Origin: an uncultured Paracoccaceae bacterium | GTDB lineage: Bacteria; Pseudomonadota; Alphaproteobacteria; Rhodobacterales; Rhodobacteraceae | Direction of reading: 5' to 3' | Length of the DNA: 50,546 nt | Assembly (NCBI GenBank): GCA_947311485.1 | Contig: CAMZLM010000081.1 | Span: forward strand, 1 to 50,546 | Shown here: piece by piece, positions 12,816-21,647 of the stretch | Numbering within the stretch: position 1 is the first letter of the stretch | Layout: each line of letters opens with the position of its first letter | Position numbers and translations under genes: made by a program | Notes under the pieces: generated by a model | Seen by the model: the letters and a program-made list of their open reading frames with translations, nothing else | The model's database searches: none | What the model was told of the DNA's origin: nothing

Positions 12816-15800
12816 TTACATTTTGAACACGCGGTAAATGGCGGGAATCACCAGCACGGTCAGGGCGGTCGACGTCGCGAGACCGAACAAAAGCGAAATC
12901 GCCAGACCTTGGAAAATCGGATCTGACAGGATCACCACCGCCCCGATCATCGCAGCAATCGCGGTGAGCAAGATCGGTTTAAACCGCGTCGCACCGGCGG
13001 CAATCAGGATATCGAGGTTAACCTCGCCCGCGCCTTCGTTGCGGATGAAATCCACCAGAAGAATCGAGTTTCGCACGATAATCCCCGCAAGTGCGATGAA
13101 TCCGATCATCGATGTTGCCGAGAAAGGCGCATTGAACAGCCAGTGACCAAACATGATGCCAAGGAAGGTTAGCGGAACCGGCGTCAGGATGACCAATGGC
13201 AGGCGGAAAGACCCGAATTGCGCCACCACAAGGATATAAATTCCCAACAGAGCCACAGCAAAAGCCGACCCCATGTCGCGGAATGTTACCCAGGTAACCT
13301 CCCATTCACCATCCCAGAGCAGAATGGGTTTGTCTTCCTCTTTGGGTTGGCCATGCAGTACGATTTCCGGTTTTTCCATATCGGACCAGTCCATTTTATC
13401 GAGCTCCTCTGCCACGGCCAACATGCCGTAGAGGGGGGCCTCGAAGCGGCCGGCCATTTCGCCCATCACCATTTCCGCATAGCGGCCATTGTGACGGAAA
13501 ATGGGATAGGATGCACGTTCTTCGATGATGTTTACCACATCACCGAGTTCGACCACACCGCGATCCCCCGGCAGCACATTTGCCGGCACAGGGGTTGCCA
13601 ACATCCGTTCGTCAATCACCCGGTCAGAGCGGTCGCGCCCGACCACAATCGGGATCGGCTGACGGCCTTTGCCGCGATGGGAATAACCCACAGTAATGTC
13701 ACTATTGAGCATTTGCAGCGTGTTGAGCGCATCGGATTCCTGCACGTGGTAGAACTCCAGATCATCGGGCAACAATTCCGCTCGCATCCGGCGCGGACGC
13801 ACGCCAAAGCTGTCGTCTACATCCACCACATAGGGCACGGCCTCGAATGCCTGACGAATACGACGCGCGCTTTCACGGCGGGTTTCGGCGTCCGGTCCGT
13901 AGACTTCGGCCAGCAGGGTTGCGATCACAGGTGGACCGGGGGGCGGTTCAACGGTTTTAATGTTGGTGCCTGGCGGTACGTCCAGTTCAGCCAGTTTTCC
14001 GCGCAATTCCAGCGCAATTTCATGGCTGGTACGGGTGCGGTCGTCCTTGCCTTCCAGATTGATCTGCACTTCGCCCAGTTCCGGCAGTTGGCGCAAGAAG
14101 TAGTGGCGTACCAAGCCGTTGAAATTGAACGGGGCGGCGGTGCCGGCATAGGTTTGAACCGATACGACCTCTTCCAGTTCCAGCGCCACACGCGCGGCCT
14201 GTTGCAATACGCCGTCGGTGGCTTCGGCAGAGGCCCCTTCGGGTAAGTCCACGACGATCGATAATTCGGATTTATTATCAAACGGCAGCAATTTTACCGT
14301 CACATCGCGGGTATAGAGCGCGCCGAGCGAGCCAAAGGAGGCTGTAATAATCACGATCAGAAAAATACCGCTAACGGCTTTGCTGCGTAGCAACGGCCGC
14401 GCGATAACGGCATAGAGTTTGCCCAAACGGCCACCGGACTCGGCCCCTTCGTCGTGGTGCAGATCGGCCTTGCCGGCGACTTTCATCATCAGCCAAGGGG
14501 TCACAATCACCGCAATAAAGAATGAAAAGATCATGGCCGCGGAGGCATTCGCCGGAATTGGGCTCATGTATGGCCCCATCAAGCCGGAGACAAACAGCAT
14601 AGGCAACAATGCCACAACCACGGTCATGGTGGCAACGATGGTGGGATTTCCCACCTCGGCTACGGCGGCAATGGCCGCGCGATTGCGGCCTTTGTTGCCC
14701 TTGTTCATCCCCCAGTGCCGCGCGATATTTTCGATCACTACAATGGCGTCATCCACCAGAATGCCGATTGAGAAAATCAACGCAAATAACGATACACGGT
14801 TGAGCGTGTAGCCCATCAACCAAGCAGCAAACAACGTCAGCAGAATGGTCATCGGGATCACAACGGCAACCACGATGGCTTCGCGCCACCCAATGGCAAA
14901 TAGCACCAGAATAACGATGGAAACGGTGGCAAGCCCCAGATGGTAGAGTAGTTCGTTGGCCTTTTCCTCGGCAGTGTCACCGTAATCGCGGGTCACATCC
15001 ACGACCACAGAATTGGGGATCGTGTGGCCTTTGAGGCTCTCGATCTTGTGGAGGATTTCCTCGGCCACCAGCACGGCATTGGCACCGGCGCGTTTGGCCA
15101 CGGCCAGAGTAACCGCCGGCATCCGCGAGATTTCCTCGCCGTCGACGCGGCGCAGGGTGGCGACGTGGACTTCGTCCAGATCGGTAATAAAACCGACCGA
15201 TGCCACATCACGTACATAGACCGGACGGCCATCACGCGATGTCAGCACCAGATTGCTGATCTGTTCCGGGCTGGACAGGGTGCCGCCCAAAATCAGGGAA
15301 ACCTGTTCGCCTTGGTCACGTACTGAACCGGCTGGAAAGGCCGAATTCGCCCCCTTAACCTTGCCCACCAGCTGTTGCAGGGTGATCCCGTAGAGCGCCA
15401 GTTTTTCCGGATCGGGTGCCACACGCAATGCTTCACCGGTTTCTCCGACAAGGAAGGTGCGTCCGACGTTGTCGATCTTGGCCAATTCGGCGTCGACCTC
15501 GCGGACAATGCGGGAAATGTCGTTGGCGGTTGTGCTGGTTTGTCCCGGAGCAGGTGAGAACGTCAGCGTGACAATGGCAACATCGTTAATACCACGCCCC
15601 ACCACCAGGGGTTCGGGGATTCCTACGGGAATTTGGTCAAAGTTGGCGCGGATTTTATCATGTACGCGCAAAATAGCGGTTTCGGAATCAACGCCCACAT
15701 CAAACCGCGCGGTGACCATGACCTGATTGTCGCGAGTCGAGGAATAGACATGTTCGACCTGGTCAATGCTTTTGACGATGCTTTCGAGTGGTTCGGTGAT

Positions 15801-16025
15801 CAGCTTCACCGCATCGGGGGCCTTAAGCCCGTCTGCGCGAATGTGAATATCGACCAAGGGCACGGAAATTTGTGGTTCTTCCTCGCGCGGGAGGCTGACC
15901 AGAGCGAGTAAACCGACCGCAATTGCGGCAAGCAAAAACAAGGGCGTAAGCGGAGATTTGATAAAGGCCGCGGTCAGGCGTCCTGCAATCCCCAGAGGCC
16001 CGGAATCGGGTGTTTGATCAGTCAT
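12816..16025 (-). CDS. RND efflux transporter permease subunit (HAE-like)
   Basis: 1069 aa, two repeated multi-TM halves, TM4 'GILVDDAIVVIENIARH' with the DD pair of proton-coupled HAE-type RND pumps. Confidence 0.92.
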   Translation of the reverse strand: MTDQTPDSGPLGIAGRLTAAFIKSPLTPLFLLAAIAVGLLALVSLPREEEPQISVPLVDIHIRADGLKAPDAVKLITEPLESIVKSIDQVEHVYSSTRDNQVMVTARFDVGVDSETAILRVHDKIRANFDQIPVGIPEPLVVGRGINDVAIVTLTFSPAPGQTSTTANDISRIVREVDAELAKIDNVGRTFLVGETGEALRVAPDPEKLALYGITLQQLVGKVKGANSAFPAGSVRDQGEQVSLILGGTLSSPEQISNLVLTSRDGRPVYVRDVASVGFITDLDEVHVATLRRVDGEEISRMPAVTLAVAKRAGANAVLVAEEILHKIESLKGHTIPNSVVVDVTRDYGDTAEEKANELLYHLGLATVSIVILVLFAIGWREAIVVAVVIPMTILLTLFAAWLMGYTLNRVSLFALIFSIGILVDDAIVVIENIARHWGMNKGNKGRNRAAIAAVAEVGNPTIVATMTVVVALLPMLFVSGLMGPYMSPIPANASAAMIFSFFIAVIVTPWLMMKVAGKADLHHDEGAESGGRLGKLYAVIARPLLRSKAVSGIFLIVIITASFGSLGALYTRDVTVKLLPFDNKSELSIVVDLPEGASAEATDGVLQQAARVALELEEVVSVQTYAGTAAPFNFNGLVRHYFLRQLPELGEVQINLEGKDDRTRTSHEIALELRGKLAELDVPPGTNIKTVEPPPGPPVIATLLAEVYGPDAETRRESARRIRQAFEAVPYVVDVDDSFGVRPRRMRAELLPDDLEFYHVQESDALNTLQMLNSDITVGYSHRGKGRQPIPIVVGRDRSDRVIDERMLATPVPANVLPGDRGVVELGDVVNIIEERASYPIFRHNGRYAEMVMGEMAGRFEAPLYGMLAVAEELDKMDWSDMEKPEIVLHGQPKEEDKPILLWDGEWEVTWVTFRDMGSAFAVALLGIYILVVAQFGSFRLPLVILTPVPLTFLGIMFGHWLFNAPFSATSMIGFIALAGIIVRNSILLVDFIRNEGAGEVNLDILIAAGATRFKPILLTAIAAMIGAVVILSDPIFQGLAISLLFGLATSTALTVLVIPAIYRVFKM

Positions 16026-16974
16026 GGCTGTTCACCAGTTTGTCGCCCGCATACAGGCCGGTTAACACTTCGTAAAAGCTTTGGCCGTCTTTTTCGACTT
16101 TTTCGCCCAAAACCACAGCCCGTTGGAGCGGCGCGCCGTCAACATCGATGGTGACAAAGTCGATTCCGCCGCGCAGTACCAGTGCCGATTCGGGCACCAG
16201 CAGCGCATCGCGTGTGCCGACGGGCAGGCGCACCGGAATGCGGCGGCCGATGAAATGGTCGTCAAGGTTGTCGACTTCGACATCGGCCAAAACACGGCCT
16301 CCCTCGATTTGCGGATAGATTTTGGCGAGTCGGCCTGTCTGGCCTTCGCCAATGGAAATTGTGTCACCCTGCTTGAGCGCGGTGGCGTGGCGTTCGGGTA
16401 CGGACAGGCGCAAAAATGCCCCGCCGGCCCCGATGATGGCGATGCCTTCGCCCGGGGAAGCAACTGATCCTTTGGCGGTGGGGACCGACAACACGATGCC
16501 GTCATCCGGAGCCAGAACCTTGCCTTCGGATACCCGTTGGGTCGTGATCAGGCGGTTGGATTCCGCAGAGCGAATTTCGCCTTTCAGAACGTCTACTTGG
16601 GTAGTGAGTTGATCAAAGCTCTGTTTGGTGATGACGCCGCGTTTAAGCAGCTCTTCGCCACGTTTGAAATCGGTCAGCGCAGCCTGAAGACGGGACTGCA
16701 GGGTGCTGATTTGGGCGTCTGCCGCGGCCAGTTGAAAGGCCAGTTTGTCGTCAACGATCAGGGCAATACGCTGACCTTGCTTGACCATGTCGCCTTCGGA
16801 GACAGAGAGTTCGGCGATGGTGCCGCTGATGCGCGCGCGGGCGGGTAGGCGGTCACGGGTTTCGACGACTCCGTAAACGGCTTTCCATTCGGTAAGCGGT
16901 TGCAATTGAAGTTCTTGCGCCGATGCCGCCGAGGCAGCAAGCAAGGCTGCAATGACTGGTAGGATGAGTTTCAT
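16018..16974 (-). CDS. RND efflux periplasmic adaptor (membrane fusion protein)
   Basis: Signal peptide MKLILPVIAALLAASAASA, HlyD-like 'GDMVKQGQRIALIVDDKLAFQLAAADAQI...', 'APDDGIVLSVPTAKGSVASPGEGIAII'. ORF-track start at 17241 is too far upstream. Confidence 0.9.
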   Translation of the reverse strand: MKLILPVIAALLAASAASAQELQLQPLTEWKAVYGVVETRDRLPARARISGTIAELSVSEGDMVKQGQRIALIVDDKLAFQLAAADAQISTLQSRLQAALTDFKRGEELLKRGVITKQSFDQLTTQVDVLKGEIRSAESNRLITTQRVSEGKVLAPDDGIVLSVPTAKGSVASPGEGIAIIGAGGAFLRLSVPERHATALKQGDTISIGEGQTGRLAKIYPQIEGGRVLADVEVDNLDDHFIGRRIPVRLPVGTRDALLVPESALVLRGGIDFVTIDVDGAPLQRAVVLGEKVEKDGQSFYEVLTGLYAGDKLVNSHD

Positions 16975-17085: not shown

Positions 17086-17162
17086 AATATCAGTCCCCAA
17101 ACCTTGTGTAAAGTGGTCAAATTCGGGCTGCTCAATTAAAATTGAACAAGGGTAACAAGGGC

Positions 17163-17193
17163 TTGACCTTCCCGTACTGGAAGTTTGCAGAAT
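17163..17193 (+). promoter_or_regulatory. CueR-type (MerR family) promoter upstream of the cytochrome c operon
   Basis: TTGACC-19 bp-CAGAAT with TTCC...GGAA dyad inside the spacer (ttgaccttcccgtactggaagtttgcagaat). Confidence 0.72.
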
Positions 17194-17252
17194 TGGCCGA
17201 GGTGGTCCTGTATCCGCAGGGCTGCACTTGGGATGTGTCATAAGGAAAATTG

Positions 17253-17693
17253 ATGAATAATAACTTAAAACTGGTTCTGGCCCTGTTGGTTTTGGCCGTT
17301 GGTGGCGGAGCTTTGTGGATGTTGCAACGGCCTATGCCGATGGATGGATCGCAAATGGCGATGGCGGATGGCGGTCCGATTGCGGATGTAAAAATTCCGG
17401 CAGAACTGAGCAGTCTGGCCACGATCGGCAAGCGGGCCTTTGATGTCAAATGTGCGGCATGTCACGGGGCGAATGCTGCCGGGACACAGGGCAAAGCACC
17501 ACCGTTGGTGCATCAATACTATCGCCCCGGCCACCACGCGGATGCCGCATTTTTTCTGGCGGCACAAAACGGGGTACGGGCGCACCACTGGCGGTTTGGC
17601 GACATGCCCCCGGTGGAGGGTGTAACCAAAGGGGACATCAAGGGGATCGTTGCTTATGTACGCAGTCTGCAAAAAGAAAACGGCATTAATTGA
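17253..17693 (+). CDS. Membrane-anchored c-type cytochrome with Met-rich linker, likely copper-related
   Basis: N-terminal TM, Met-rich PMPMDGSQMAMA, one CAACH heme motif, His-rich 'HQYYRPGHHADAAFF...RAHHWRFGDMPP'. Confidence 0.82.
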   Translation: MNNNLKLVLALLVLAVGGGALWMLQRPMPMDGSQMAMADGGPIADVKIPAELSSLATIGKRAFDVKCAACHGANAAGTQGKAPPLVHQYYRPGHHADAAFFLAAQNGVRAHHWRFGDMPPVEGVTKGDIKGIVAYVRSLQKENGIN

Positions 17694-17704
17694 GGGGGTA
17701 TAAC

Positions 17705-18130
17705 ATGGGTTTACGTCATCTGGCTGGGGGATTGTGTTTGGCATTCCTCGCGCAACCGGTCGCTGCGCAACAGGATGTTAGTGCGGGTAAAGAGTTGTAT
17801 GCGGCTAATTGTGCGTCTTGTCACGGGGCCAAGCTCGAAGGGCAAAAACAATGGCAGCGGGCCGATGAGAACGGGGTTTTTCCGGCCCCGCCCCATGATG
17901 TAAATGGCCACACATGGCATCACGGTGACAAACTGTTGTTTGACTATACCAAATTGGGCGGGGCCAAGGCGCTTGCCGCGCGCGGTGTGGCGGATTTCAA
18001 CAGCGGCATGCCTGCATTTAAAGACGTGCTGTCGGATACGGAAATCCGCAATATCTGGGCGTTTATCAAGTCCACATGGCCAGCGCAGGCCCGGGCGGTA
18101 CAGGCAGAGCGTACCGCCGGGGAGGATTGA
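17705..18130 (+). CDS. Periplasmic c-type cytochrome, likely copper-related
   Basis: Signal peptide MGLRHLAGGLCLAFLAQPVAA, CASCH heme motif, 'PPHDVNGHTWHHGDKLLFDYTKLGG'. Confidence 0.82.
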   Translation: MGLRHLAGGLCLAFLAQPVAAQQDVSAGKELYAANCASCHGAKLEGQKQWQRADENGVFPAPPHDVNGHTWHHGDKLLFDYTKLGGAKALAARGVADFNSGMPAFKDVLSDTEIRNIWAFIKSTWPAQARAVQAERTAGED

Positions 18131-18142
18131 TCAACCCCGCTC

Positions 18143-18340
18143 CTAGGCGGGTGTTGCCGGATAGCCTTCTTCGGCCAGCGCCTGAATAATCACGTCTGTG
18201 CTCAGCGCAGAGATAACCTCCACGGATTTCTTGTCCAGATCCGTGGTGACCACCGCATCGGCATCAAGGCCGGCGATGGTTTTTTCAATTGCGGCAGTGC
18301 AATGGCCGCAGCTCATGTCGGGTACATTTAGTTTGATCAT
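18143..18340 (-). CDS. copZ: Copper chaperone, heavy-metal-associated domain (CopZ-like)
   Basis: 65 aa; MSCGHC metal-binding motif (VPDMSCGHCTAAIEKTI). Confidence 0.88.
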   Translation of the reverse strand: MIKLNVPDMSCGHCTAAIEKTIAGLDADAVVTTDLDKKSVEVISALSTDVIIQALAEEGYPATPA

Positions 18341-18375
18341 CGGTATCTCCTGAAACGATTTGGGAGAGGAGCTAA

Positions 18376-18398
18376 GGCTTCCCCCGCCGGAAGGTCAA
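18376..18398 (-). promoter_or_regulatory. CueR-type operator/promoter of copZ
   Basis: Minus strand TTGACCTTCCGGCGGGGGAAGCC: same TTGACCTTCC...GGAA architecture; -10 element less clear. Confidence 0.6.
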
Positions 18399-18447
18399 GC
18401 GCCGGTTAAAAATAAATTCACAACTTGGAATATTTTCGCTCCCGGCC

Positions 18448-18478
18448 TTGACCTTCCCCCCACTGGAACCCCTATCTA
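18448..18478 (+). promoter_or_regulatory. CueR-type promoter of copA
   Basis: TTGACC-19 bp-TATCTA with TTCC-CCCCACT-GGAA dyad; elongated 19-bp spacer typical of MerR-family promoters. Confidence 0.8.
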
Positions 18479-21036: not shown

Positions 21037-21423
21037 ATGAACATTGGAAGCGTATCCGCCCAATCAGGCCTGTCCGCAAAAACCATCCGTTACTATGAGG
21101 ATATCGGGCTGGTGAAACCCCTGCGCGACACCAATGGATATCGGTCGTTTCAGGAGAAGGAGCTGCACAAGCTGACCTTTCTCAGCCGAGCGCGTGCGCT
21201 TGGGTTCACCATCGAGGATTGCCGCGCATTGCTGGCGCTGTACGAGGACGAAACCCGTGCCAGTGCCGACGTAAAACGCATTGCGCAAGAACAGCTGCAG
21301 ATGATTGAGAAAAAACTGGTAGACCTGCAGAACATGCATGACACGCTGTCCCACCTGATCGATGAATGTGCCGGCGATCATCGGCCCGATTGCCCGATTC
21401 TGAAGGATCTGGGCAAGGTTTAA
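21037..21423 (+). CDS. cueR: Copper-responsive MerR family regulator
   Basis: MerR HTH (MNIGSVSAQSGLSAKTIRYYEDIGLVKP) and C-terminal CxxxxxxxC metal loop (CAGDHRPDC); same operon as copA. Confidence 0.9.
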   Translation: MNIGSVSAQSGLSAKTIRYYEDIGLVKPLRDTNGYRSFQEKELHKLTFLSRARALGFTIEDCRALLALYEDETRASADVKRIAQEQLQMIEKKLVDLQNMHDTLSHLIDECAGDHRPDCPILKDLGKV

Positions 21424-21428
21424 TTGTG

Positions 21429-21647
21429 ATGAAACGCTGCCTGCGCGATAAAATGATCGAGGTCTGCGACCGTAAAATCGCCCAAAAGGGTGAAGGTGTC
21501 GGCCTGTCATTTTATGCTTTTTTCGCGAACAAAAACGACAATCCGGAATTGTTGATGCAGGCGGCTGAGTGGTGGATAAAAACCCACGAGCTTGACCATT
21601 TTGAAAAGGCCGCGAAAATCAAACAGATGGTTTTGGACGGGTTGTAA
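21429..21647 (+). CDS. Small conserved protein (DUF6500-like)
   Basis: 72 aa, MKRCLRDKMIEVCDRKIAQKGEGVGLSFYAFFANKNDN...; family assignment from memory of the sequence pattern. Confidence 0.6.
   Translation: MKRCLRDKMIEVCDRKIAQKGEGVGLSFYAFFANKNDNPELLMQAAEWWIKTHELDHFEKAAKIKQMVLDGL

Follow-up and report, generated by a model that had tools for sequence, protein, structure and literature searches.

Two neighbouring genes for c-type cytochromes (cyt1 and cyt2) in the 50,546-nucleotide stretch of DNA analysed here, hereafter the window, very probably form a copper-inducible operon under the predicted control of CueR. With hardly less confidence, the pair may be placed in the CueR regulon with a copper-defence role of some kind. 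Participation in the copper-defence response is very probable because a switch of the type found at copA and copZ is conserved before cyt1 in many marine relatives. The features concerned are the following.

17163 to 17193, forward strand: putative CueR-type promoter of the cytochrome pair, read from the sequence as TTGACC (17163-17168), a 19-bp spacer and CAGAAT (17188-17193)
17253 to 17693, forward strand: cyt1, monohaem cytochrome c of 146 aa with a predicted N-terminal membrane anchor and the haem motif CAACH (Pfam PF00034, E=4e-14)
17705 to 18130, forward strand: cyt2, probably exported monohaem cytochrome c of 141 aa with the haem motif CASCH (Pfam PF00034, E=7e-13)
18143 to 18340, reverse strand: copZ, HMA copper chaperone of 65 aa (Pfam PF00403)
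18368 to 18398, reverse strand: putative CueR-type site of copZ, read from the sequence as TTGACCTTCC-N6-GGAAGCC with a weak -10
18448 to 18478, forward strand: putative CueR-type promoter of copA, read from the sequence as TTGACC, 19 bp and TATCTA, with the dyad TTCC-N7-GGAA
18516 to 21020, forward strand: copA, Cu-type P1B ATPase of 834 aa with two HMA domains (NCBIfam TIGR01511, 595.7 bits, cut-off 397; Pfam)
21037 to 21423, forward strand: cueR, Cu(I)-responsive MerR-family regulator of 128 aa (NCBIfam TIGR02044, 160.3 bits, cut-off 147.4)

A preliminary description of this DNA had reported three CueR-type sites, and all three are present. The window contains three matches to the pattern TTGACCTTCC-N3..9-GGAA, whereas 100 dinucleotide shuffles of it yielded none, and in a scan of the whole genome (3.07 Mb) the three window sites are the only matches, with the same outcome for a relaxed pattern; together, the shuffles and the scan argue against a chance origin. 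The spacer of the cytochrome site contains ACCTTCC-N6-GGAAGTT, with dyad symmetry at 8 of 10 positions, and the site ends about 60 bp upstream of the cyt1 start codon. The copZ site at 18398 (reverse strand) reads TTGACCTTCCGGCGGGGGAA; it and the copA site lie between the divergent copZ and copA genes, their starts 50 bp apart. The 19-bp spacing to a -10 element was recovered for the cytochrome pair and copA; copZ has no clear -10 at that distance, the hexamer there, AGCTCC, being a poor one and TAGCTC at 18 bp a better one. At the cytochrome site, CAGAAT is itself only a moderate match. Nor are the three sites equivalent, as had been assumed: in addition to the weak -10 of copZ, the TTCC-GGAA dyad has a 7-bp centre at copA but a 6-bp one at the other two sites.

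Published CueR/HmrR signals have a 7-bp centre (PMC1526738), one base more than the cytochrome site; the latter therefore resembles them less closely, but its assignment as a CueR-type site is not weakened by this. A census of exact CueR-type sites in 61 genomes of the family gave 80 sites, upstream of copA (32), copZ (18), cyt1 (4), cyt2-like genes (3), cueR (3) and others (20), compared with 6 matches for the reversed pattern used as control. Spacing differs by target, with N7 at 31 of the 32 copA sites and N6 at 12 of the 18 copZ sites (Fisher p = 1.7e-6). Since copZ sites are mostly of the N6 kind, this spacing is a regular variant in the family and not a fault of the cytochrome site, and by the same counts the cytochromes are the third class of named CueR-site target. 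Presumably, one CueR serves both spacing classes. A second close CueR paralogue for the N6 sites was sought in the genome and not found: the cueR product is the sole close homologue, the other two MerR-like matches being 28-29% identical. The identity of the cueR gene downstream of copA, proposed earlier, is borne out by the equivalog cut-off of TIGR02044. The best NCBIfam matches of copZ are a copper ion binding model and a CopZ model, both under their cut-offs.

CueR-type sites also lie immediately upstream of cyt2-like cytochromes at three loci (L169, L189 and L203), and immediately upstream of L,D-transpeptidase genes at three others (L184:1501-2110, L194 and L210), assigned through PF03734 for the first and by sequence similarity for the other two. 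L,D-transpeptidases are also found upstream of cyt1 on plasmids of the Roseobacter clade, and may possibly represent a copper-induced cell-wall enzyme. Genes for a protein combining glutaredoxin and MauE/DoxX domains (L045:8598-9344 and other loci) often have their own CueR-type site near cueR and cyt1. In the window, an RND efflux pair (a HlyD/CusB-like adaptor and an AcrB-family pump; 12816-16974, reverse strand) is divergent from the cytochrome operon, and its position is kept in two relatives (L034 and L035). A gene for a DUF6500 protein (21429-21644, forward strand) follows closely 3' of cueR.

A check proposed earlier, whether the site also precedes orthologous cytochrome genes, gave a positive result. 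With a scoring matrix trained on copA and copZ sites only and a threshold of at least 8 bits, 42 of the 110 regions upstream of cyt1 orthologues contain a site; of 1100 dinucleotide shuffles, 1% reached the threshold. Control regions gave 1/45 for cyt2, 0/18 for MCO_a and 0/24 for MCO_b, the latter two being multicopper oxidase groups (0/42 together). The enrichment before cyt1 has a Fisher p of 8e-12 if genes are taken as independent, an overstated figure because the genes are related. Among the 68 cyt1 upstream regions lacking a site, 54 are near other cop genes, and some of these site-less genes sit inside operons that are themselves led by a site (e.g. L050 and L055). The second -10 position is A in all 29 N7 cyt1 sites and in 9 of the 13 N6 ones. 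In a sister genome (an Amylibacter MAG), whose cyt1 is 87% identical to that of the window, 20 of 22 bases are retained in the core of the cytochrome site and 200 of 266 alignment columns in the remaining intergenic sequence; the -10 reads CAGGTG.

The strongest argument that the site belongs to the cytochrome comes from lone copies, in which a site precedes cyt1 even though no cop gene was detected nearby. This is the case at 17 loci having at least 2.5 kb on both sides and no cop gene detected within 6 kb by tblastn with marker proteins, a search that could miss a very divergent cop gene. The genera include Marinosulfonomonas, Sulfitobacter, Aquicoccus, Loktanella, Albidovulum, Actibacterium and Sinisalibacter, and the surroundings were inspected for five examples (L079, L088, L109, L121 and L138). 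With no cop gene detected near them, these copies argue against spill-over from adjacent copA or copZ promoters. The conserved site, the lone copies and the identity of CueR together support the earlier proposal that the cytochrome pair belongs to a predicted copper regulon with CopZ and CopA, and from these sequence comparisons we infer that CueR binds at 17163-17193 and that copper induces cyt1-cyt2. The start of cyt2 is 12 bases past the cyt1 stop and no terminator-like site was found between them, so co-transcription of the two genes is likely.

Both products have the features of class I c-type cytochromes, with one CXXCH motif each, a distal Met ligand and a PF00034 domain, and the AlphaFold2 models are confident (pLDDT 91 and 90), showing the N-terminal helix of cyt1 at residues 3-25. 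Foldseek found no match in the PDB at E<=0.001 for either protein. Among solved structures, the cyt1 domain is closest in sequence to CcoP, a subunit of cbb3 oxidase, and, further down, to the haem domain of three-domain copper nitrite reductases. These are domains or subunits of larger enzymes, whereas the window cytochromes are free-standing and carry extra invariant histidines. Across 73 cyt1 sequences His94, His95, His111 and His112 are invariant, His87 is nearly so and Met118 is conserved; across 29 cyt2 sequences His64, His69, His72 and His73 are invariant, as is Met102. The axial Met is separate from the non-haem histidines, and aligned CcoP segments have a residue other than histidine at most of the conserved cyt1 histidine positions. 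Such invariant non-haem histidines would fit a copper-binding or copper-contacting surface. The cyt1 of the window also has five methionines at positions 23-37, in the segment after the membrane anchor, but orthologues do not share this methionine-rich stretch.

A multicopper oxidase gene is flanked by cyt1 and cyt2 in many relatives, often with CopC-CopD or a larger cytochrome. Clusters of this type are accompanied by CopA-CueR on annotated plasmids of Dinoroseobacter shibae and Phaeobacter, and by a copper ATPase on the megaplasmid of Ruegeria pomeroyi DSS-3. No multicopper oxidase lies between cyt1 and cyt2 at the window locus. The genome does have one, 62% identical to that of the relative L035, on a contig of about 3 kb (C167; L159, 1-3085), where no CueR-type site was found in the 167 bp available upstream. 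It sits behind a transposase fragment (a DDE_3 transposase end, PF13358), and part of the sequence upstream of it recurs at the other contig end, which suggests that it was relocated by an insertion element.

Copper nitrite reductase haem domains exchange electrons with copper centres. The invariant histidines and the solved relatives, CcoP and these haem domains, are the reasons for favouring a role as a copper-induced periplasmic electron relay aiding Cu(I) oxidation, a conjecture to which we would give somewhat less than an even chance. A rise in cytoplasmic Cu(I) would cause CueR on the dyad in the 19-bp spacer (17163-17193) to untwist the promoter, and cyt1-cyt2 would be switched on together with copZ and copA. 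CopZ and CopA would transfer Cu(I) to the periplasm, and there cyt1, with its predicted membrane anchor, and the probably exported cyt2 would most likely act as an electron relay. The relay would draw electrons from Cu(I), either directly at a histidine-lined site or via a multicopper oxidase, and hand them to the respiratory chain, so that Cu(I) would become the less toxic Cu(II). A bolder version, which we consider doubtful, is that Cu(I) oxidation is the dedicated function of cyt1 and cyt2, each with a histidine-lined copper site beside the haem, through which the respiratory chain would oxidise periplasmic Cu(I), and that a lone cyt1 would replace or supplement the multicopper oxidase.

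The cytochromes might alternatively be spare electron carriers with no direct copper role, raised by CueR to replace those damaged by copper: copper would poison cytochrome c maturation and harm resident cytochromes, and the replacements would sustain respiration. Toxic copper has been described as acting on the assembly of c-type cytochromes (PMC8456105, citing Durand 2015), and each of the two proteins is a monohaem cytochrome from a common Pfam family. We nevertheless hold this account to be rather unlikely, since it leaves unexplained both the invariant non-haem histidines and the repeated linkage to multicopper oxidase, CopC and CopD, and the replacement would itself depend on the poisoned maturation pathway. 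Slightly less probable again is that the two bind copper in the periplasm, chiefly to sequester or deliver it, via the conserved histidines and the methionine-rich segment of cyt1; the eight invariant histidines and the five methionines speak for such a function, but it would make the haem group superfluous, and the methionine-rich segment varies among orthologues. Finally, it is very improbable that the CueR-like sequence at 17163 arose by chance or is decaying and that the pair is driven by another promoter, such as the one consensus-like sigma-70 match at 17114-17142, because, despite the weak -10 of the sister genome, shuffles of the same stretch average 1.4 such promoter matches, and the CueR-like site, which has no counterpart in the genome other than those of copA and copZ, recurs before cyt1 in many genera.

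As in the CueR/HmrR regulon of E. coli and Rhizobium (copA, copZ, cueO), a MerR-family CueR, a 19-bp spacer, an ACCTTCC...GGAA dyad and copA/copZ targets are present. The window differs from that regulon by the addition of a c-type cytochrome pair, by cytochrome and copZ dyads whose centre is 6 bp long where the published one has 7, and by a multicopper oxidase whose membership of the regulon is not apparent in this genome. For Rhodobacter sphaeroides, a member of the same bacterial order as the window genome, the work of Peuser and colleagues reportedly gives a copper ATPase and a chaperone as the CueR targets, and is said to report no cytochrome. The title of that earlier study, devoted to the R. 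sphaeroides CueR (RSP_2889), is cited in PMC10141476 (Peuser et al. 2011). A cytochrome as a member of the CueR regulon is not new in kind, because Permina et al. (2006, PMC1526738) had already predicted such sites ahead of the genes for cytochromes c553/c554 in three Vibrio species, V. vulnificus, V. parahaemolyticus and V. cholerae. That prediction is likewise computational and concerns a c-type cytochrome behind the same kind of promoter, but in another bacterial class, and the cytochromes described here form a two-gene operon and also occur as a family of solitary copies. No experimental work on cytochromes under CueR control in Rhodobacterales came up in a search of the open-access literature, an absence that is weak evidence. 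In the proteome of a Roseobacter-clade strain under copper, CueO, CopA and CopZ are reported, and the term "cytochrome c" is absent from the main text (PMC6308992). As far as the open-access literature shows, the new elements are a Rhodobacterales-wide cytochrome family, its two-gene operon, its lone copies under predicted CueR control and its invariant non-haem histidines.

If the proposed regulation is true, the 2006 Vibrio prediction would be extended to a different bacterial class, and the use of c-type cytochromes in bacterial copper detoxification would become testable, with the lone site-bearing cyt1 copies as a clean single-gene test case. A respiratory-type cytochrome would then join the defences that an abundant marine family raises against copper.
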